Positions 26,249-36,009 are shown, numbered from the stretch's first letter. The stretch: 64,000 nucleotides of DNA from Rhodothermus profundi (GCF_900142415.1 NZ_FRAU01000002.1:62001-126000), one strand, 5' to 3'. A program made the numbers and translations. Notes: generated by a model not told the origin, from the letters alone.

Positions 26249-27082
26249 ATGGCACAGGAATCCTGGGAGCGCCGGCACTGGCCCAAGGTTAGCTGTCTCA
26301 TGGTAACGGCCGATCGGCCCCATCTGGTGCGACGCGCCATTCGGTCCTATCTTCACCAGACCTATCCCAACCGAGAGCTTGTGGTGCTCGACAACGGGCA
26401 ACAACCGCTTGACGAAGCGCTACTGGCTGAAATCCCGTCGAATGAGCTGATCTACGCGCGCGTCAAACCGCGGCCGGGTTTAGTGATCGGTACGCTACGC
26501 AATCAGGCGCTGGAGCTGGCACGAGGGGACTACATTGCCCCGCAATGGGATGACGACGACTGGTCGCATCCTGAGCGACTCATGCGTCAGATGCACGTGC
26601 TTCTTACAGCCGATTGCGATGCCTGCACGCTGGCCGGCACGCTCATGCATGTCAATCATCCTACCTATTTTTTCCATCCGTTCATCGGGCTGCTGCGCCA
26701 TGGCGTACCGCCCACTATTGTGCATCGCCGGAGCGCAACCATCCGGTATCCTGACCTGCGACGCACCAGCGACACGCACTATGCCGAAGCATGGCGGCGT
26801 ACTGGCCGCTACGTAATATTGCCGCCTTCTGAATCCTACCTCTATCTGCGCTATTTTCATGGCAGCAATCTGTGGGAACAGGAGCACTTCCTGCGCCGCA
26901 TGCGCAACACGCCGAAGGACTTTCTCGCTTATCTCTGGTATCGGTATGTCCGTGGCAACGAATTCGCCCATCCGCGTTTTCGGCTGACGCCGGCCATGCA
27001 AGAGGCCTTCGCACGCTACCTGCGCGACTCCATTGAAACGGGCGTATTTCAACCGGAACTGCTTCAGGAATTGCACCACTGA
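26249..27082 (+). CDS. Family 2 glycosyltransferase
   Basis: Cytoplasmic GT-A glycosyltransferase, 277 aa, no membrane segments. N-terminal VSCLMVTADRPHLVRRAIRS starts the nucleotide-binding fold. The metal-binding DxD motif is an unusual run of four aspartates (101-104) in PQWDDDDWSH. LRNQALELARGDYIAP and the later WRRTGRYVILPPSESYLYLR resemble GT2 proteins that decorate envelope polysaccharides. The acceptor and sugar are unknown. Its 3' end overlaps the convergent membrane-protein gene by 19 bp. It is the first gene of a glycan-rich region (26-39 kb). Confidence 0.88.
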   Translation: MAQESWERRHWPKVSCLMVTADRPHLVRRAIRSYLHQTYPNRELVVLDNGQQPLDEALLAEIPSNELIYARVKPRPGLVIGTLRNQALELARGDYIAPQWDDDDWSHPERLMRQMHVLLTADCDACTLAGTLMHVNHPTYFFHPFIGLLRHGVPPTIVHRRSATIRYPDLRRTSDTHYAEAWRRTGRYVILPPSESYLYLRYFHGSNLWEQEHFLRRMRNTPKDFLAYLWYRYVRGNEFAHPRFRLTPAMQEAFARYLRDSIETGVFQPELLQELHH

Positions 27083-27969
27083 GTCCGACGAGCCAGCACC
27101 CAACGTATCCGGGAGGCCCAGCGCGTTTGCAGCAGCCGATCCAGCCATCGGCTCCAGGGCAGCGCGAGAAGCAGCAATTCCGCAGCCGCAAAGTGAAAAG
27201 AAATGGTCAGCGTCGCGTAGATACCCGCATGCATGCCTACCAGCGCCAGCAGCACAGGGAAGCGGAACGGACGCCACCAGACGGTAAAAGCCAGCAGCTC
27301 AAGAAGCAACGCACTGGTAAGTAGCAGGGTGCTCAGGGAAGGATGGGCCAGGAGCAGTTGCTGCAGAAAGCTCGGTTCCCAGGCTCCGGTCCGGGCTGTA
27401 AGATCAACGCCCTTTTCCAGAATCCAGAGGGTGAGATGGCTTCCGTCTACCCAGCCTGGACCGGTGGCCACAAGCTTGCTGAGTCCGGCCAGCGTATAGC
27501 TCAGGCCTACAAAGAAATAGGTGAAGCCCAGCGCAGCGCGACGGCGATAGGAGGCTGAGCGAAACAGCAGCGCGCCCAACGCCAGGCTCAGCAACGTCAG
27601 CCCAAGTAGATGAGTACCGTGCGGTGTCTTACCCAGCGAAAATCGGCTCACGTACAGCAAGTGTAGCCCTACCAGCGCCAGCAGGTACGCCAACCGCCAT
27701 CGATGCGTCAGGCCCAGCAGCAAAAGGACTGTAACCGTGGCTGCCAGACCTAACGCTACGCTGGGCTGCATGAACCAGGACACGTCCAGATAGTGCGCCA
27801 GGCCCGTCGGATACAGAGGAGTTTCCAGGCGACCCAGATAAAGCGCCCAGCTCCAGGCATGGCCGCTCAGGGTGAACACCACAAATCCTTCAAACAGGGC
27901 GAAAAACAGTCGTTCGCCCGCTGTTTCTGGACGCTCGAAGTCGAATAGATCGCGAAGGAAGAATTTCAT
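27064..27969 (-). CDS. HTTM/gamma-carboxylase-like polytopic membrane protein (short)
   Basis: About 301 aa with several hydrophobic segments. The preferred start is the ATG at 27969, giving a 4-nt ATGA overlap with the upstream gene stop; ATG 27978 is three codons earlier. It resembles the membrane core of HTTM proteins, related to vitamin K-dependent gamma-carboxylase (YFFVGLSYTLAGLSKLVATG, GPGWVDGSHLTLWILEK), but lacks a soluble C-terminal domain. It is the last gene of a four-gene operon (31113 to 27064). Substrate unknown. Confidence 0.72.
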   Translation of the reverse strand: MKFFLRDLFDFERPETAGERLFFALFEGFVVFTLSGHAWSWALYLGRLETPLYPTGLAHYLDVSWFMQPSVALGLAATVTVLLLLGLTHRWRLAYLLALVGLHLLYVSRFSLGKTPHGTHLLGLTLLSLALGALLFRSASYRRRAALGFTYFFVGLSYTLAGLSKLVATGPGWVDGSHLTLWILEKGVDLTARTGAWEPSFLQQLLLAHPSLSTLLLTSALLLELLAFTVWWRPFRFPVLLALVGMHAGIYATLTISFHFAAAELLLLALPWSRWLDRLLQTRWASRIRWVLARRTQWCNS

Positions 27970-29528
27970 GGCTGCCATCGGGGATGGATCTGGACCGTAT
28001 CAGCCGTCAACGCAATGATAGGGAGGTAATAAAGCCGCACTCCGTCTGGGGTGGGCATGCCACGTACCTGTAAGATGAGGAGCCGGCGGTCTTCTAATTC
28101 CGGGCCAAACAGCCGCAGCAGTGTCTGGCGACGCTGCGCATGCCAGCGATCCGGCTGGGTGACAAAGTTGATCAGGTCAACCGGGTCGAGCGTGGTGCTG
28201 CCTAGCGGAAATGGACGGCCAGGAAGCGACGTTGGTGCCCACAGCGTATCCCAGCGCACCGGCTCTTCAGGGCTCAGCTCGCGCACCACAGCGCGCGTCC
28301 AGGGCTGCCCGGCCTGCGAGAACATGGGAAACACGCTCATGGGCCAGAACTCACCAGCATGGGTAGCTATTAACGCTCCATACACCCCCAGCACGAGCGC
28401 CAGCGTTCGACCCACCCGCCGATAGGCACCTGCAACCGTCGGAGTAAGGGACAAGAGGTGGCCTGACTGATGTCGCAACCGAGCGATTCCATTCCCGATT
28501 ACAATCAGCGCGGCAATGACGTTAACCAGCAGCTCCGTGAGCGACAGATCGGACGAGAAATTGGCGAGAGCATCCAAACGGCGTAGTGGCGAGCCAAAAA
28601 GGTAACAGGCTATAGCCACCAGTGGAATTGCTGGCAGGATAAGACGGGGCGGCAGTCGGAACCGGGGAACGTGCGTGGCAAGTTGATTCCAGTTCAAAAA
28701 AGCTGCATAAACAATCAGATTTTGCACGAAGGTAATGTTGAACAGCAGAGCCGTGCTCAAATGAAACAGGACCATCAAGCTTAGAAATACCCGAAACAGA
28801 CGCGGTGCAAATGCAGCGGGTAGAAAGCCCATTTCCAGCACCACGGTGCCCCAGTCCATCAGCTCCCAGAGACCGGAGGGCAGCGGTGCGGTAACCAGAT
28901 CAGCCAGCAGATCCTGCCGACCAATGATAAAGTACTGTTTGAGCCAGTGGCCCCGGGCGGCATGAGTGGAGGGGTCCAGCCAGCCGCCCAGCAGCTTGGT
29001 AAAACCGGCAGTGAACAGGGCAAAGCCAATCAGTAGCGCGAGTAGAGATAGCGGCCATCCCGCGACCGTTGCGCGCGTTCGGCCCAGCCAGGCATCCAGT
29101 GACCAGGTGGCGCCCCAGTTGCTAAAGCTCATTACCCAGGGCAGCAGAACAAACAGCAGCACGTGGTTGATCTTGCCGGCTGAGAACAAAAAGCCAAAGC
29201 CGATGAGCAGGAGCAGGCCGGTCAGCCAGGAAGCCAGGCGGGTGCGATAGCCGAAAAGCAGGGCAACCAGGCTCAGGTCAAGCAGGAAGTGCAGGCCTGC
29301 AAAAAACCAGCGGGGCGGAAAGCCGCCAAAAAGCTGCATGGGGCCAGGCGGCGGCAGAAAGAAGCTGTCGGGCAGTTCGCCGATTGGGTGGAAATTGAAA
29401 TAAGGGCTGTGGCCGGGATCCAGAATGAACAAGACAAACAGCGCAAAGGCTATCCGGTAGGCAGCCAGCCCCTCGGCTGTTGGTTGGAAAGCGTTGAAGA
29501 GCCAGTGGTCGAGGCGTCTGGCGTTCAT
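27966..29528 (-). CDS. HTTM-domain membrane protein (vitamin K-dependent gamma-carboxylase-like)
   Basis: 520 aa. The N-terminal two-thirds is polytopic, with the HTTM pattern (RLDHWLFNAFQPTAEGLAAY, AGKINHVLLFVLLPWVMSFS, HWLKQYFIIGRQDLL, FHLSTALLFNITFVQNLIVY). The C-terminal part is soluble and probably extracytoplasmic (about 405-520). HTTM proteins are often found with polysaccharide or exported-protein genes; most have no known activity. It shares 4-nt overlaps with both neighbouring genes, so it sits inside a tight operon. Two HTTM-like genes side by side is notable. Confidence 0.85.
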   Translation of the reverse strand: MNARRLDHWLFNAFQPTAEGLAAYRIAFALFVLFILDPGHSPYFNFHPIGELPDSFFLPPPGPMQLFGGFPPRWFFAGLHFLLDLSLVALLFGYRTRLASWLTGLLLLIGFGFLFSAGKINHVLLFVLLPWVMSFSNWGATWSLDAWLGRTRATVAGWPLSLLALLIGFALFTAGFTKLLGGWLDPSTHAARGHWLKQYFIIGRQDLLADLVTAPLPSGLWELMDWGTVVLEMGFLPAAFAPRLFRVFLSLMVLFHLSTALLFNITFVQNLIVYAAFLNWNQLATHVPRFRLPPRLILPAIPLVAIACYLFGSPLRRLDALANFSSDLSLTELLVNVIAALIVIGNGIARLRHQSGHLLSLTPTVAGAYRRVGRTLALVLGVYGALIATHAGEFWPMSVFPMFSQAGQPWTRAVVRELSPEEPVRWDTLWAPTSLPGRPFPLGSTTLDPVDLINFVTQPDRWHAQRRQTLLRLFGPELEDRRLLILQVRGMPTPDGVRLYYLPIIALTADTVQIHPRWQP

Positions 29529-30013
29529 GGCTGGCGTATGGTCAGGGTGTCAAGTGGAAAGACCTGTAAGGTGCCGGTGTGGGGCGTGAAACGAAGCTGT
29601 TCCCAGACGATGTCCACTTGCACAGGCGTATCTCCCGTCAGGGCTTGCATTCGGTTCCACAGCCAGCGGATAGCGTCCGGCCGGCGAATGCGCTCGGTCT
29701 CAGGAGTGCCGCTCAGCGAAGCCGGTTGAAAGAAAGCCTCCAGCATGGCCCGGTGGTGAGAGTATGGCAGGGAAGCCAGCACAGCGTCGGCGGGAAGCGG
29801 CTGCATGGTTCCGTCGGCCTGATGGACGACAAACGTCACGCGTCTGGACAGCAACGGGCTGTCTGCCTGCCAGGTGGCTTTGAAACCGGGCATGACCAGG
29901 AGTGGCCAGGGCTCGTGGCCACCCTGAAGCTGCACCAGTCCTACAAGGGCATACTGAATCGGCAGCAGTATGGCCAGCCCCCAGAAAAGCCGGCGCACAT
30001 GGGTTCGCTTCAT
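29525..30013 (-). CDS. Membrane-anchored protein of unknown function, HTTM operon
   Basis: 162 aa. One N-terminal membrane segment (about 8-28: RLFWGLAILLPIQYALVGLVQ) is followed by a soluble domain of about 130 residues, probably outside the cytoplasm. I do not recognise the domain; it has no Cys pair or catalytic motif I can name. It overlaps the upstream glycosyltransferase and the downstream HTTM gene by 4 nt each, so it is likely part of the same process, perhaps a subunit or substrate-presenting partner of the HTTM protein. Confidence 0.75.
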   Translation of the reverse strand: MKRTHVRRLFWGLAILLPIQYALVGLVQLQGGHEPWPLLVMPGFKATWQADSPLLSRRVTFVVHQADGTMQPLPADAVLASLPYSHHRAMLEAFFQPASLSGTPETERIRRPDAIRWLWNRMQALTGDTPVQVDIVWEQLRFTPHTGTLQVFPLDTLTIRQP

Positions 30014-31113
30014 AGGGCGTGACGCGCTGCGTCGTAAACAGCTTCGGTGTCGCGCACCATGCGGGTCAGGCTGTGCTGCGCTTCGACAGCTGCTCGTCCG
30101 GCCCGGCTGAGATGTTCGACCAACGCAGGCGTCTCCAGCAATCGCTTTATCGCGACCGCCAGCGCCTCGGCATCTCGCTCCGCCACCAATAGCCCCGTTT
30201 TTTCCGGTACGATCAGCTCGGGAATGCCTGCATGCTGCGTGGCAACCACGGGAATCCCACTGGCCAGCCCCTCGATCAGCACATTGGGCAGGCCTTCCTG
30301 ATCTCCGTCAGTTGCCGTCTGGCTCGGGACGAGCAGTACGTCGTGGGTGTAATACGCCTGGCGGGCCACCTCGTTTGTGACAGCTCCATGAAATGAGAGG
30401 AAAGCGCTGATGCCTAGCCGATGTGCCTCAGCCTGCAGAAAAGTTCGTAGCGGCCCGTCTCCATAGCAGTGCAGTTCGACGGCGTAGCCGCTTGCCCGCA
30501 AGCGGGCAACGGCTTTGAGCGCGGTGTGGTGCCCTTTTTTTTCGACCAGCCGTCCTACCATCAGCAAGCGGAAACCGGCCCGCGTGCGCAGCCGAAAGGG
30601 AAAGGCAGACAGGTCGATGCCAAAGCGTACCACTGCGATTTTCTCTTCCGGGAAGCCCAGCGTGATCAATTGCTGTTTCATAAAGTTTGTGGCGGCAATA
30701 AAACAGGTACCCTGGCGGGCCAGTCGCTGGTAGCGGCGGCGCCAACCCGGTTCTGCCGGAAGACGGGAGACGTCGTGTCCATAGAAGCTCACCACGAGAG
30801 GAAGCCGGGTGTGTCGGCTGAGGTCCAATAGTCGATAGCCGTCCAATCCGAAATGGGCATGCAGCACCACTGGATGCACCTGGCGGCAGACCTGGTAAAG
30901 AAAGCGAGGGGAACGGTTGAGCTGTTGCAGCAAGCGATCGCGCCAGGCTTCCCAGCCGCTCGGGGTATAGACGGAAAGGCCATCCAGATAGTAGCGAGGG
31001 TGCAGGGTCCCGATTACCGGCCGGTAGCGCTCGTGATGGCGCACAAGCCGGTCGATGAAGGTTTCGGAAAGATTGAGATAGACTGATTTAAAATGCAGAG
31101 CGATAGGCCGCAT
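30010..31113 (-). CDS. Family 4 glycosyltransferase (GT-B)
   Basis: About 367 aa from the ATG at 31113 (MRPIALHFKSVYLN). GT-B fold with an N-terminal acceptor domain (VVSFYGHDVSRLP) and a C-terminal donor domain with VGRLVEKKGHHTALKAVARL, YGDGPLR and the acid motif EGLPNVLIEGLASGIPVVATQHAGIPELI. The E-x7-E pattern is clear. It starts the operon that continues with the 162-aa anchor and two HTTM genes, so it may supply the glycan on which they act. The sugar is unknown. Confidence 0.92.
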   Translation of the reverse strand: MRPIALHFKSVYLNLSETFIDRLVRHHERYRPVIGTLHPRYYLDGLSVYTPSGWEAWRDRLLQQLNRSPRFLYQVCRQVHPVVLHAHFGLDGYRLLDLSRHTRLPLVVSFYGHDVSRLPAEPGWRRRYQRLARQGTCFIAATNFMKQQLITLGFPEEKIAVVRFGIDLSAFPFRLRTRAGFRLLMVGRLVEKKGHHTALKAVARLRASGYAVELHCYGDGPLRTFLQAEAHRLGISAFLSFHGAVTNEVARQAYYTHDVLLVPSQTATDGDQEGLPNVLIEGLASGIPVVATQHAGIPELIVPEKTGLLVAERDAEALAVAIKRLLETPALVEHLSRAGRAAVEAQHSLTRMVRDTEAVYDAARHAL

Positions 31114-31157: not shown

Positions 31158-31730
31158 GTGATCATGCGCATCAACCGGATCTGCTGGGAGAAGGTTCTAG
31201 CAGGTCTGCTCATGGGGATAGGGCTACTGCGTGCAGCAATCGCTCAGGAGAAGGCGCTACATAATTATGGAAAGAGAGAGGAGCACGCGAGTGGCCGCAC
31301 GGTCGGTTCGCCGCTAATGTTTGCGTTTGAAGATCGGAAGCAACGGTTAATCGGAGGCGTCGAGAACAACCGCGTAGTGGCGCACCATCTGGGATTGGCC
31401 GGGCGACTGGGGCAAGCATTCCGTTATCGATTAGTAGCGACGTACTCGCGCAACTACGGCACCTACAACGGACGGGATGTGCTGCAACAGCCGGGCGCAA
31501 CGTATCGGTTTGAGCCGCCACCGGAGCAGTTGTCGTGGCTGGTTGTGCTGGACTGGGAGCCTGTAGGACAACGGCTGGCTGTGCAGGTAGCCGTAGGCGG
31601 AGACGTTGGGGAGCTGTATTCCAACAATCTGGGGATTGGACTGGGCGTGCGCTATCGTCCCTATGCGATGACGTCTTCGGCGAAAAGTTTGCACCTCAGG
31701 CGGCAACATGAAGCCGGTAGCTGCCGTTAG
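31158..31730 (+). pseudogene. Truncated Wzi-like outer-membrane barrel gene
   Basis: 190 codons. A signal peptide (about residues 3-30, ending AAIAQEKALHNYG) is joined almost directly to what looks like the C-terminal third of a capsule-assembly Wzi-family barrel: RTVGSPLMF, ENNRVVAHHLGLAGRL, RYRLVATYSRNYGTYNG and VGGDVGELYSNNLGIGLGVRYR. Family members are usually about 400-550 aa, so some 250-350 middle residues appear to be missing. The reading frame is intact, and the C-terminus after VRYR looks unlike the family. It could be a deletion derivative of a gene that once attached polysaccharide to the surface. A start at GTG 31158 or ATG 31164 is possible. Confidence 0.5.
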
Positions 31731-31763: not shown

Positions 31764-32750
31764 ATGTCCCTTAAAGCGTGGGCACAGGCAGTACGCACGT
31801 GGCTGCAAACGCCGGTCGGGCGGCGCATGCAGCGGTATGGCCGCGCACTTTTTGTAGCCGGGGTAGTAGGATGGCTGCTCTACCGGCTGACCCAGATTGG
31901 CTGGCAGGAGGTTTATGAAGGGTTGCCGCGCACGCCCTGGTTCTATGTGCTCTGGCTCGGGCTGTATTTCCTGTTGCCAGCTACCGAAGCCGGTATCTAC
32001 CGGATGCTCTGGAAGATTCGATGGGGGCGTGTGTTTCCGGTGCTGGTGCGCAAGCGGGTGCTGAACACGGACGTATTGGGCTATTCCGGAGAATTCTACC
32101 TGTACCTGTGGGCGCGGCGCCATACCGATTGCTCGGATGGGCATTTGCTGCGCACAATCAAGGACAACACGATTCTTTCGTCGGTGGCCTCGACCGTGGC
32201 CGTGGTGGTGCTGGTGAGTGGGACGGTACTGGGCGGGCAGTTTGCGCTGGTAGATTTAATCGGACCAGCAGCCGATCCGGTGTACCTGGTGGCCGGAGCT
32301 CTCGCGTTAGGGGTGCTGGGCGCGTTGGCCGTGCGGTTTCGGCGCGCCATTTTTTACGTGCCGGGGAGGATGGCCGGGATGTTGCTGGGGGTGCACGTGC
32401 TTCGGTTTTTTGCCATGTACGCGCTGCAGGTGCTCCAGTGGTGGGTCGTGTTGCCGGAAGCGCCGTTGCGCGTCTGGGCGACCATCCTGGTGGTAGGCAC
32501 GGCTACCAACCGTATCCCGTTTCTGCCGGCTACAGATCTGTTAGCATTAGGTGCTGTGCTGGGCATGACCCATCTATTGGAAGCTTCGGCTGCGGTGCTG
32601 GCCGGCATGCTTGTTGTCCGTAGCGTAATGGATCGCACGGCCAATGCGGTCCTCTTTGTGCTTACAAGCTGGCTAGAGCGACGAAGACGGGTCCTGCCAG
32701 TATCGACGCCTGCCGAAGCCGAATGTCCTCTGAGTAGTCCGACCGAGTGA
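31764..32750 (+). CDS. Polytopic membrane protein, possible LPG-synthase-like flippase family
   Basis: 328 aa with about eight hydrophobic segments. The general layout, with ARALFVAGVVGWLLYRLTQIGW-like first segment and repeated hydrophobic helices, recalls the LPG_synthase_TM/UPF0104 family, but no diagnostic motif is decisive. It is the first gene of a tight group: 1 nt to the DUF3047 gene, then 3 nt to the MMPL gene. A role in lipid or isoprenoid handling is an inference only. The C-terminal tail (about 300-328) is hydrophilic. Confidence 0.6.
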   Translation: MSLKAWAQAVRTWLQTPVGRRMQRYGRALFVAGVVGWLLYRLTQIGWQEVYEGLPRTPWFYVLWLGLYFLLPATEAGIYRMLWKIRWGRVFPVLVRKRVLNTDVLGYSGEFYLYLWARRHTDCSDGHLLRTIKDNTILSSVASTVAVVVLVSGTVLGGQFALVDLIGPAADPVYLVAGALALGVLGALAVRFRRAIFYVPGRMAGMLLGVHVLRFFAMYALQVLQWWVVLPEAPLRVWATILVVGTATNRIPFLPATDLLALGAVLGMTHLLEASAAVLAGMLVVRSVMDRTANAVLFVLTSWLERRRRVLPVSTPAEAECPLSSPTE

Positions 32751-32751
32751 G

Positions 32752-33474
32752 ATGCTGCGCCGTTTGATGCTGCTATGGATTGGCCTGCTGTTGCAGGGCG
32801 TGGTGCTCGGACCTGCATCCGACTCGCAACGCATACGCGTAGAAGATTTTGAAACCTATCCGGTGGGGTCCTACCCGTCCCGCTGGAAGTTCCTGACCAG
32901 CAAACGGGAGTTCCGCCCGCTCGAAGCGGTCATGAATGAGCGGGAAGAGTGCCGCGTGCAGGCTGAGGCAAACAATCAGTTTCTGCGCTGCACCACGCAG
33001 GGCGAGGCCCAGCGCATCACGCTGGCAAACCGTGACGATTTTGGACTGAACTGGGACTTGCGCACGCATCCCACGTTGCGATGGCGCTGGCGAGCCGTTC
33101 ATTTGCCGGCCAATGCTCGGGAGGATCGTCGGCGGTGGAACGACAGTGGCGGAGCGGTCTATGTAACCTTTGGCTTCGACTGGCTGGGCCGTCCGATCAG
33201 CATCAAATATACCTACAGTTCGCTGCTTCCCCGGGAGACCGTCGTTGACTTCGGCCCCTTGAAGGTCATTGTAGCCTCGTCTGGGCGAGAGGGGTTTGGA
33301 CGCTGGATTACGGTCGAGCGCGACGTCGCAGCCGACTATCGGCGCGTCTTCGGCAAAGAGCCGCCCGCCCGTCCGCTTTCCATCACGATCTGGAGTGATT
33401 CGGACAATACCCGAGACTACGCCATTGTTGATTTTGATGATTTTGAACTCCTGCCTGCTGCTACAGTCCGATAG
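32752..33474 (+). CDS. DUF3047-family secreted protein
   Basis: 240 aa. A signal peptide (MLRRLMLLWIGLLLQGVVLG) is followed by a soluble beta-rich domain. The family signatures are LRWRWRAVHLPANAREDRR, the region RWITVERDVAADYRRVFG and the acidic SDNTRDYAIVDFDDFEL. The function of DUF3047 is not known; it is usually exported. It lies between the polytopic gene upstream and the MMPL transporter downstream (3-nt gap), suggesting that the three form one envelope module. Confidence 0.85.
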   Translation: MLRRLMLLWIGLLLQGVVLGPASDSQRIRVEDFETYPVGSYPSRWKFLTSKREFRPLEAVMNEREECRVQAEANNQFLRCTTQGEAQRITLANRDDFGLNWDLRTHPTLRWRWRAVHLPANAREDRRRWNDSGGAVYVTFGFDWLGRPISIKYTYSSLLPRETVVDFGPLKVIVASSGREGFGRWITVERDVAADYRRVFGKEPPARPLSITIWSDSDNTRDYAIVDFDDFELLPAATVR

Positions 33475-33477
33475 CCT

Positions 33478-36009
33478 ATGATGGAACGAGTGTTTCAGCG
33501 GTTGCGCCCGGTTATTCGCTGGGCAGTTCGTCGTCCCGGTCTGGTGCTGGCGCTGGCCCTGGCACTTTCGGTAGTCGGGGTATTCCTCGCGATGCAACTG
33601 CGCATTGACACGGACTTTTCCAAACTCATTCCTAAATCCTATCCCAGCGTCCAGGCGCTTGAGCGGCTGCGCGAGATGGTAGGGGGCGAAAGTACCGTCG
33701 ATGTTGCAATTGTCAGTCCGTCGTTTGAGGCCAATCGACGTTTTGCCGAAGATCTGATCCCGAAGGCACTGGCGCTTACGGGAGAAGGCTATACCGAACC
33801 CTATCTGAGGCGCGTTGAGTACCGGCGAGAGACTGCCTTTCTGCGCCGCAACGCGCTTTATTTTGCCACCGACGAGGAACTGGATGAGCTGGAGCAGTTC
33901 CTGCAGGACAAGATTGAAGAAGCCCGGCTGAAAGCAAACCCTTTCTTTTTCGAGCTGGAGGAAGAAGAGGCGGAAGAAGACACGACCGTTGAAGCGCTGC
34001 AGATCGTCTATGAAGAGCTGATCGGGAAGGAATATCCGATTTCAGAGGATAGCACGACGCTGGTGCTGCGCTTCTATCCGACCAACTCGCAGACGAACAT
34101 TGGCTATATCGAAGATCTGTACCGCGATCTGCAGCAACTGGTCGATCAAATGCAGCCGGTCCGTTATCATCCGGAAATGCAGGTCGTACTGGCAGGTCGG
34201 CTGCTGCGCCAGCTCGTTGAGGTGCGGGCTATCACCGACGATGTGTTCAGTTCGTTTGGAGCAGGGGTAACAGCCGTGCTGCTGCTGGTGGTGGGCTATT
34301 TCACCTACAAGTCCTATCGGGCTCGAGTGGGACGCCGCCTGGACCGCCGCGTGCTACTGGCCGAACTGGGACGCATGCCGGTAATGGCGGTGTTGATTGG
34401 TCTGCCCCTGCTCATGAGCCTGTCCTGGTCGTTTGGACTTGCTTACGTGGCGTTTGAGACGCTGAATCTGATGACATCAACGCTGGGATTGGTGCTCTTT
34501 GGATTGGGCATTGACTATGGCATTCACTTTTACGCACGGTATGCCGAGGAGCGTGCCGAAGGACACGGGGTAGCCGAAGCCGCTGAGATCACCTTTTTGA
34601 GCACGGGGCAGGCGATTACAATTGGCGCGCTGACGACGGCGGTTTCGCTCTATATGCTTATGATCGCAGATTTTAAAGGGTTTAGTGAATTTGGGTTCAT
34701 TGCAGGAAGTGGGATTCTGTTCGCGCTGGTGGCCATGCTTGTCATAATGCCTGCCCTGCTTTCGCTGGCCGAGCGCTTTCGTCTGTTGAATCTGGAGGCT
34801 GGCCATACCGCACCGGTACATCGGGTGGGGCGGGGACGCTTCCCGGCCGCCCGGGGCGTGGTGCTAGCCAGCGGCGCTGCGGTCGCATTGGCGCTTCTGT
34901 GGCTACCACGCGTGTCATTTGAATGGGACTTCGGCAAGCTGGAGCCGCGTTACGAAGACTATGAGGCGCGGCAGGACTATGTGGAGCGGGTATATCAGAC
35001 CCGTGGGCGGCGTAACCCGGCCTATATCGTGGTAGACGATCCTGCTGAGGTGCCGGCGGTTGTGGCGGCGCTGAGAGCACGCGCTGCTGCCGACACGCTT
35101 TCGCCCACCATTCTGGATGTAGAAAGCTTGCAGGAGCGTTTTCCAATGACACCTGAGGCGCAGCAAGCCCGGTTGGAACGAATTGCCCGCATTCGCGCCC
35201 TGCTTGATGATCCATTTCTGCGGTCCGACACGTCGGTCTGGATGCAGCGCCTGCGTGAGGCAGCGCAAACGCAACGGCCCATCTCGCTGGAGGAGGTCCC
35301 TGCATTTCTGAAGGCCCGCTTTACCTCAAAAACTGGTGAGATCGGCAACTTTGTGTTGATCTATCCCTCCGTGCGACTGGCGGATGGGCGCAATTCGATG
35401 GCTTTTGCCGAAGACGTGGGGCGGGTAGAGGTAAACGGCAAGGTGTACTATGCAGGCTCCACGTCCCTGGTGGCCGCCGACATGCTGCGGCTCATGCTTA
35501 AGGAAGCTCCCTGGATGGTGCTCCTCACGTTCATAGCAGTCACGCTGCTCATGTGGCTCAACTTCCGCACGCTACGCTGGACGTTGCTGGCGCTCCTTCC
35601 GTTGGTGGTGGGCGTGCTCTGGATGCTGCTGGTGATGGAGCTGCTTGGCATGAAGCTCAACTTTTATAACATGGTAGTCCTGCCGGCTGTGCTGGGAATT
35701 GGCAACGATGCCGGTGCGCATCTGGTGCACCGCTATCGGGAGCAGGGCGTGGGTAGCATCCTGCAAGTGCTACGTTCGACCGGTGAGCACGTGACGATGG
35801 CATCGCTGACCACCATGATGGGGTTTGCCGGACTGCTGCTCAGCTTTCATCCCGGATTGCGTTCTATTGGTGAACTGGCTGTGGTGGGGATTGGCACCAC
35901 CTTGCTAGCGGCCCTGGTTTTCCTGCCTGCGCTCATTCAGTGGCTGGAAGACCGGAAGCAGCGTCCAGAGCCTGCAGCGCCGGTTCCGGCTGCTTCGCCA
36001 AGCAGATAG
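33478..36009 (+). CDS. MMPL/RND-family transporter
   Basis: 843 aa. The RND/MMPL pattern is clear: an N-terminal membrane helix (about 18-40), a large extracytoplasmic loop (about 45-260), a block of membrane segments (TSTLGLVLFGLGIDYGIHFY, with the typical GIDYG motif), a second large loop, and a second membrane block (LPAVLGIGNDAGAHLVHRYR). Related proteins move lipids, hopanoids or other hydrophobic molecules. The neighbours suggest a lipid substrate, but this is inference. Its 3' end overlaps the convergent glycosyltransferase by 77 bp, the longest overlap in the window. Confidence 0.92.
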   Translation: MMERVFQRLRPVIRWAVRRPGLVLALALALSVVGVFLAMQLRIDTDFSKLIPKSYPSVQALERLREMVGGESTVDVAIVSPSFEANRRFAEDLIPKALALTGEGYTEPYLRRVEYRRETAFLRRNALYFATDEELDELEQFLQDKIEEARLKANPFFFELEEEEAEEDTTVEALQIVYEELIGKEYPISEDSTTLVLRFYPTNSQTNIGYIEDLYRDLQQLVDQMQPVRYHPEMQVVLAGRLLRQLVEVRAITDDVFSSFGAGVTAVLLLVVGYFTYKSYRARVGRRLDRRVLLAELGRMPVMAVLIGLPLLMSLSWSFGLAYVAFETLNLMTSTLGLVLFGLGIDYGIHFYARYAEERAEGHGVAEAAEITFLSTGQAITIGALTTAVSLYMLMIADFKGFSEFGFIAGSGILFALVAMLVIMPALLSLAERFRLLNLEAGHTAPVHRVGRGRFPAARGVVLASGAAVALALLWLPRVSFEWDFGKLEPRYEDYEARQDYVERVYQTRGRRNPAYIVVDDPAEVPAVVAALRARAAADTLSPTILDVESLQERFPMTPEAQQARLERIARIRALLDDPFLRSDTSVWMQRLREAAQTQRPISLEEVPAFLKARFTSKTGEIGNFVLIYPSVRLADGRNSMAFAEDVGRVEVNGKVYYAGSTSLVAADMLRLMLKEAPWMVLLTFIAVTLLMWLNFRTLRWTLLALLPLVVGVLWMLLVMELLGMKLNFYNMVVLPAVLGIGNDAGAHLVHRYREQGVGSILQVLRSTGEHVTMASLTTMMGFAGLLLSFHPGLRSIGELAVVGIGTTLLAALVFLPALIQWLEDRKQRPEPAAPVPAASPSR

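Follow-up and report, generated by a model that had tools for sequence, protein, structure and literature searches.

An operon of Rhodothermus profundi contains two tandem pairs of genes, each coupling a small anchored protein (A) to an HTTM-type membrane protein (B). The locus lies in the window, the 64,000-nucleotide stretch of DNA that was analyzed, and joins a 162-aa protein to an HTTM domain (pair 1, A1 and B1) and a C-domain to a 301-aa protein (pair 2, A2 and B2). The pairs are independent units, each of which can occur alone, and the anchor of the second is hidden in the C terminus of a 520-aa fusion. The reading that we favor, although we regard it as evenly poised, is that a glycosyltransferase is encoded together with two enzymes in tandem, each made of two subunits and built on the fold of vitamin K-dependent gamma-glutamyl carboxylase (VKGC/HTTM; GGCX in humans), which would use menaquinol to modify an exported envelope product.

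Results

Organization of the operon

A first-pass annotation of this DNA had described four genes that overlap by 4 nt, two of them coding for HTTM-type proteins. All four ORFs are found on the minus strand, at 30010-31113, 29525-30013, 27966-29528 (the 520-aa gene) and 27064-27969, and every junction is an ATGA overlap. These ORFs contain five units.

30010-31113, minus strand: GT4-family glycosyltransferase, first gene of the operon (Pfam PF00534, PF13692 and PF13439; homologue in genomes G209 and G220, 43% identical over the full length)
29525-30013, minus strand: A1, 162-aa anchored partner of pair 1 (alignments, model; HTTM gene downstream in 13/13 intact cases)
28455-29528, minus strand: B1, HTTM/VKGC-like membrane domain, residues 1-358 of the 520-aa protein (PF05090; predicted GGCX fold)
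27966-28454, minus strand: A2, anchored partner of pair 2, residues 359-520 of the 520-aa fusion (alignment, model)
27064-27969, minus strand: B2, 301-aa HTTM-type membrane subunit of pair 2 (hhalign; downstream of A2 in 47/47 cases)

Pfam recognizes GT4-type glycosyltransferase domains in the first gene and an HTTM domain in the 520-aa gene (PF05090, E 5e-11, 43.1 bits against a cut-off of 27.7), which a genome-wide search identifies as the sole HTTM match in the 3.14-Mb host genome. The 162-aa protein has no Pfam match, the 301-aa protein matches neither PF05090 nor any other family at E 1, and NCBIfam gives no match for the 162-, 520- and 301-aa proteins. The 301-aa protein is nevertheless HTTM-type, as first described, since it aligns with B1 over 260 columns in hhalign (E 9.5e-8). 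The VKGC lumenal domain (PF22777) is absent from the 520-aa protein, the 301-aa protein and the whole genome. The order of the four genes is kept in six of seven genomes of the genus, the intact locus being present in five others besides the host, and is therefore not due to chance.

When the 520-aa ORF was searched against relatives, residues 1-355 and 365-517 matched different ORFs outside the genus. ORF maps show that Roseithermus, Longimonas and others encode the HTTM domain and the C-domain in two genes, and 38 genomes of the order, all outside the genus, have A2 as a gene of its own. The 520-aa protein is thus an in-frame fusion, common to all six intact Rhodothermus genomes, of an HTTM domain (residues 1-358) and an anchored domain of ~160 aa. 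Its A2 moiety is C-terminal to the HTTM moiety, which is the domain order of single-chain VKGC.

Each A gene is linked to its own B gene

Among 114 genomes of the order Rhodothermales, an HTTM gene immediately follows every one of the 13 intact 162-aa genes, with gaps of 2-72 nt between profile matches, and all 47 intact A2 genes are directly followed by a 301-aa gene. Both pairs are present in ten genomes, pair 2 alone in 34 and pair 1 alone in three, and one more genome has a remnant; in G060, the order of the pairs is reversed. The single anchor that had been proposed to serve both HTTM proteins is ruled out, since the pairs are separate in relatives, and is replaced by two separable units of anchor and HTTM protein. 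The rest of the first description, two HTTM-type proteins with a dedicated anchored partner in a probable envelope setting, stands. No 162-aa homologue that we examined in intact form lacks an HTTM gene directly downstream, whether in Rhodothermales (13), in two further genomes of the class (3) or in Rhodococcus (1).

One congener, G001, has suffered an internal deletion. Its scar (about 5310-5725 of L057, G001:C1:441000-453000) consists of an 82-aa ORF, which is the start of the 162-aa gene, and after it a piece of the 301-aa gene; the glycosyltransferase and the downstream GT2 genes are retained. The module is hence dispensable in G001, and separable from the glycosyltransferase.

The linkage extends beyond the order. 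In G209 and G220, which belong to the same class but not to the order, all five units are present in another layout: the C-domain/301-aa pair faces the HTTM/162-aa pair and the glycosyltransferase is divergent. G209 has an additional lone pair 1. Pair 1 is also found on the Rhodococcus plasmid pDK1, as a 168-aa hypothetical protein and an HTTM protein whose genes overlap by 4 nt and are flanked on either side by genes for a DUF393 protein and an O-antigen ligase. Its subunits match the respective profiles with E 1.4e-11 (A, using a 162-aa family profile built without the Rhodococcus member) and E 1e-60 (B). The DUF393 gene, which codes for a DCC1-like thiol-disulfide oxidoreductase, overlaps the pair (L109, 3103-4933), and Virgibacillus has an HTTM protein with a fused DCC1-like domain; both cases hint that redox chemistry accompanies HTTM proteins.

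Small genes also lie directly upstream of HTTM genes devoid of the lumenal domain elsewhere. They encode DUF5819 proteins in Virgibacillus and Curtobacterium, and proteins of 183-222 aa in G139, G008, G138, G190, G194 and G197. These examples, which are cases looked at and not a random sample, suggest that HTTM proteins lacking the VKGC lumenal domain come, in most of these cases, with a dedicated anchored partner encoded directly upstream. In some proteins the partner is possibly a C-terminal extension rather than an upstream gene: two HTTM proteins of 502 and 493 aa (L114, 1389-2897; L122, 1276-2757) have a long C-terminal extension with a similar motif, and are possibly independent HTTM-partner fusions. 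Three further HTTM matches (L115, L123 and L124) are weak.

B subunits retain the active-site positions of GGCX

Of the B subunits, B1 matches bacterial VKGC proteins in profile comparison, over their membrane part (E 3.9e-11). The model of the 520-aa protein has a mean pLDDT of 80, and human GGCX accounts for all 16 of the best PDB matches to its B1 part (Z 11.4-15.2, over 198-277 aligned residues); the next has a Z of 5.8, nothing else exceeding 8. As modeled, B1 has the membrane-domain fold of human GGCX. B2 matches VKGC directly only with E 0.008-0.02, but is connected to it through B1 and through a set of SdpB/DUF5819-type HTTM proteins, which matches B2 with E 6e-10, B1 with E 9e-13 and VKGC with E 5e-20. 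A search of solved-structure sequences with the A and B profiles gave no useful match.

In a cryo-EM study of GGCX, K218 is the active base, H160 is part of the Glu pocket and W223 is part of the quinone pocket (PMC12589487). The first two positions, with the His aligned through the NH motif of bacterial VKGC, correspond to the following residues.

29163-29165, minus strand: B1 His122, aligned with GGCX His160, invariant in 16/16
28995-28997, minus strand: B1 Lys178, aligned with GGCX Lys218, invariant in 16/16
27619-27621, minus strand: B2 His117, counterpart of B1 His122, invariant in 14/14
27475-27477, minus strand: B2 Lys165, counterpart of B1 Lys178, invariant in 14/14

The Trp at the W223 position is equally invariant, as W183 in B1 (16/16) and W173 in B2 (14/14). 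Where B1 and B2 keep the VKGC His, in contrast, the SdpB-like HTTM set has Asp or Asn, mostly Asp.

A subunits share a layout

A1 and A2 each have one N-terminal transmembrane (TM) helix, an aromatic/proline motif just after it and an external α/β domain. In A1, the TM helix spans residues 3-28 and is followed by EPWPxxVxPGF (alignments, model). In A2, it spans residues ~363-389 of the 520-aa protein and precedes a conserved motif (GEFWPMSVFPMFS; GEFWPxSxxPMFS) and a mixed α/β domain. The A1 model, in which the 10-residue blocks from residue 51 on have pLDDT values of 83-97, has the order strand-strand-helix-helix-strand-strand, with which the predicted order in A2 is compatible.

Their sequence profiles match with E 0.011-0.04 over 23-37 columns only, which does not support provable paralogy; A1 and A2 agree in TM helix, W/P motif and predicted topology. 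The A profiles reach E 0.08-0.2 against the VKGC lumenal domain in hhalign, and the PDB matches to the A1 model include no clear match and no GGCX. More generally, sequence profiles fall short of proving any kinship among A1, A2, the DUF5819-like set and the VKGC lumenal domain. The A subunits may still be homologous to the propeptide-binding domain of GGCX, with which their predicted strand/helix order looks compatible. In GGCX, the linker between membrane and lumenal domains is at the active site (M401, M402; PMC12589487); by analogy, the linker motif of A could sit at the active site of B.

Gene neighbors point to the cell envelope

The glycosyltransferase occurs with both pairs in two lineages that differ in gene order, its homologue in G209 and G220 being conserved over the full length; its link to the pairs is real, and looser than the links within them. 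Genes near the pairs across loci include GT4 and GT2 glycosyltransferases, Wzi-type capsule proteins and an MMPL/HpnN-like transporter, together with a flippase (MatE in Longimonas, Polysacc_synt in G209) and a sulfotransferase (G018). These surroundings support a role of the operon in the envelope and make the envelope setting proposed at first pass probable. The flanking recF, M48, MaoC, MMPL and DUF3047 genes are syntenic across the order too.

Next to the operon, the plus strand of the window bears at 31158-31730 the remnant of a Wzi-type capsule assembly gene, the remainder of which is missing. Over 123 residues, it shares 83% identity with positions 354-476, the C-terminal quarter, of a 478-aa homologue that is intact in a congener (L061). 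It is followed at 31764-36009 (plus strand) by a row of genes for a predicted 328-aa protein that Pfam does not match, a DUF3047 protein and an MMPL/HpnN-like transporter; many genomes of the order repeat this row close to the pairs. Away from the operon, the host genome has a VKOR-family domain (G000:C8:111654-112055) in a 442-aa open frame. Co-occurrence with VKOR is uninformative as a sign of quinone epoxide recycling, since 99 of 114 genomes have VKOR regardless of the pairs. The titles and abstracts that we searched on Rhodothermus exopolysaccharide clusters mention none of the operon genes.

Discussion

How might two such pairs work? In the split-enzyme reading, the B subunit of each pair would hold a quinol pocket with the conserved His and Lys, and the A subunit would sit beside it, with its TM helix, conserved linker motif and external α/β domain, and present the substrate, a task that single-chain VKGC leaves to its lumenal domain. 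Oxidation of menaquinol in B would generate a strong base at the periplasmic face, which would drive modification of whatever exported substrate A holds. Probable substrates are a surface glycan or a peptide that leaves the cell with it. The B1-A2 fusion of Rhodothermus would couple both pairs 1:1. The use of quinol, the reaction, the substrate, the role of A as substrate holder and its position relative to B are all points that we infer.

We favor the split enzyme because each A is linked to its B without exception (13/13 and 47/47) while either pair is able to occur alone, and because the pairs stay intact when swapped (G060) and when rearranged along with the glycosyltransferase (G209 and G220), as pair 1 also does in Rhodococcus. 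We also favor it because of the match of B1 to VKGC, the predicted GGCX fold and the invariant His, Lys and Trp of both B families, because A2 is fused C-terminally to HTTM as in single-chain VKGC, and because of the flippase, Wzi-type and glycosyltransferase neighbors. Against it stand the lack of a significant match, in sequence or fold, between A and the VKGC lumenal domain, two A families that are not provably related, the weak match of B2 to VKGC, and the one Rhodothermus genome that lost most of the module and kept the glycosyltransferase. A more specific version, in which split VKGC-like enzymes modify surface polysaccharide via menaquinol, for example by carboxylating it, and Rhodothermus couples two of them by the B1-A2 fusion, strikes us as a long shot.

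The main rival, which we consider rather unlikely but still the best of the alternatives, is SdpAB-like maturation, with the pairs processing or exporting a secreted bacteriocin-like peptide and the glycosyltransferase a mere neighbor. Processing of SdpC in Bacillus subtilis requires SdpA and SdpB, and the layout is alike, with a small anchored A gene followed by an HTTM-type, polytopic B gene (gene order, predicted topology); SdpB-type HTTM proteins moreover belong to the same superfamily as B1 and B2, as the profile matches given above indicate. The corresponding models nonetheless fail here. The SdpA model TIGR04034 finds nothing in the A1 set at E 10, nor in 61 genomes of the phylum, host included. 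The SdpB model TIGR04033 matches neither B2 members nor the host genome, and of 12 B1 members only one touches it, at E 0.2, short of the cut-off. By these models, the locus is not a member of SdpA/SdpB. The His position, which is D/N in the SdpB-like set, also speaks against this rival. No SdpC-like precursor was noticed among the neighboring ORFs of the window region, in an inspection that may have missed short peptide genes.

In a reading that we think improbable, carboxylase-type chemistry is lost from the B subunits, which instead serve polymer export as transporters or scaffolds while A works as their external adaptor. Flippase, Wzi and glycosyltransferase neighbors would suit such a role and, to our knowledge, most HTTM proteins have no known activity, but a pure scaffold would need none of the active-site His, Lys and Trp that are invariant in both B families. 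That the association is inherited gene order only, and the four proteins do not work together, is very improbable: the flanks are also syntenic across the order and G001 retained the glycosyltransferase after losing most of the block, but the A and B families are adjacent when swapped, convergent, isolated and in another phylum.

Little is known of the targets of bacterial HTTM proteins, and our searches of the literature on HTTM or DUF5819 function found nothing relevant and no functional study. What the locus in Rhodothermales contributes is a double arrangement, with the first putative enzyme carrying the second one's partner as a fused domain; the His and Lys that are catalytic in the clotting-factor carboxylase are preserved in it, among envelope-polysaccharide neighbors. 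The split-enzyme reading, if confirmed, would clarify the relation between the single-chain carboxylase and bacterial forms with two subunits, and would indicate quinol-driven reactions on bacterial surface products.

Comparison with known systems

The locus resembles GGCX/VKGC in that modeled B1 shares the membrane fold (Z 11-15) and the H160, K218 and W223 positions, and is accompanied by an anchored external domain, which in the 520-aa fusion follows HTTM in the same chain. It differs by its lack of the PF22777 lumenal domain, the partner being a separate small gene or another domain, and by its two B subunits and polysaccharide-type neighbors. With SdpA/SdpB of the B. subtilis SDP system, and with YitP/YitO, it shares a small anchored gene directly before an HTTM-type gene, but its pairs keep the active-site His, are two in number, come with a glycosyltransferase and have no SdpC-like gene that we noticed. 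DUF5819 and HTTM pairs likewise have an anchored protein of ~220-260 aa immediately upstream of HTTM (Virgibacillus, Curtobacterium plasmids), but no A1 or A2 member matches the DUF5819 model (PF19136), whereas the partners in Virgibacillus and G138 do. On pDK1, both subunits are homologous to pair 1 and the 4-nt overlap is shared, although the annotated stretch has no pair 2 and DUF393 and O-antigen ligase genes adjoin. The locus is a member neither of VKGC, since it has no lumenal domain, nor of SdpAB, the models of which are unmatched; we place it within the HTTM superfamily as a variant form.
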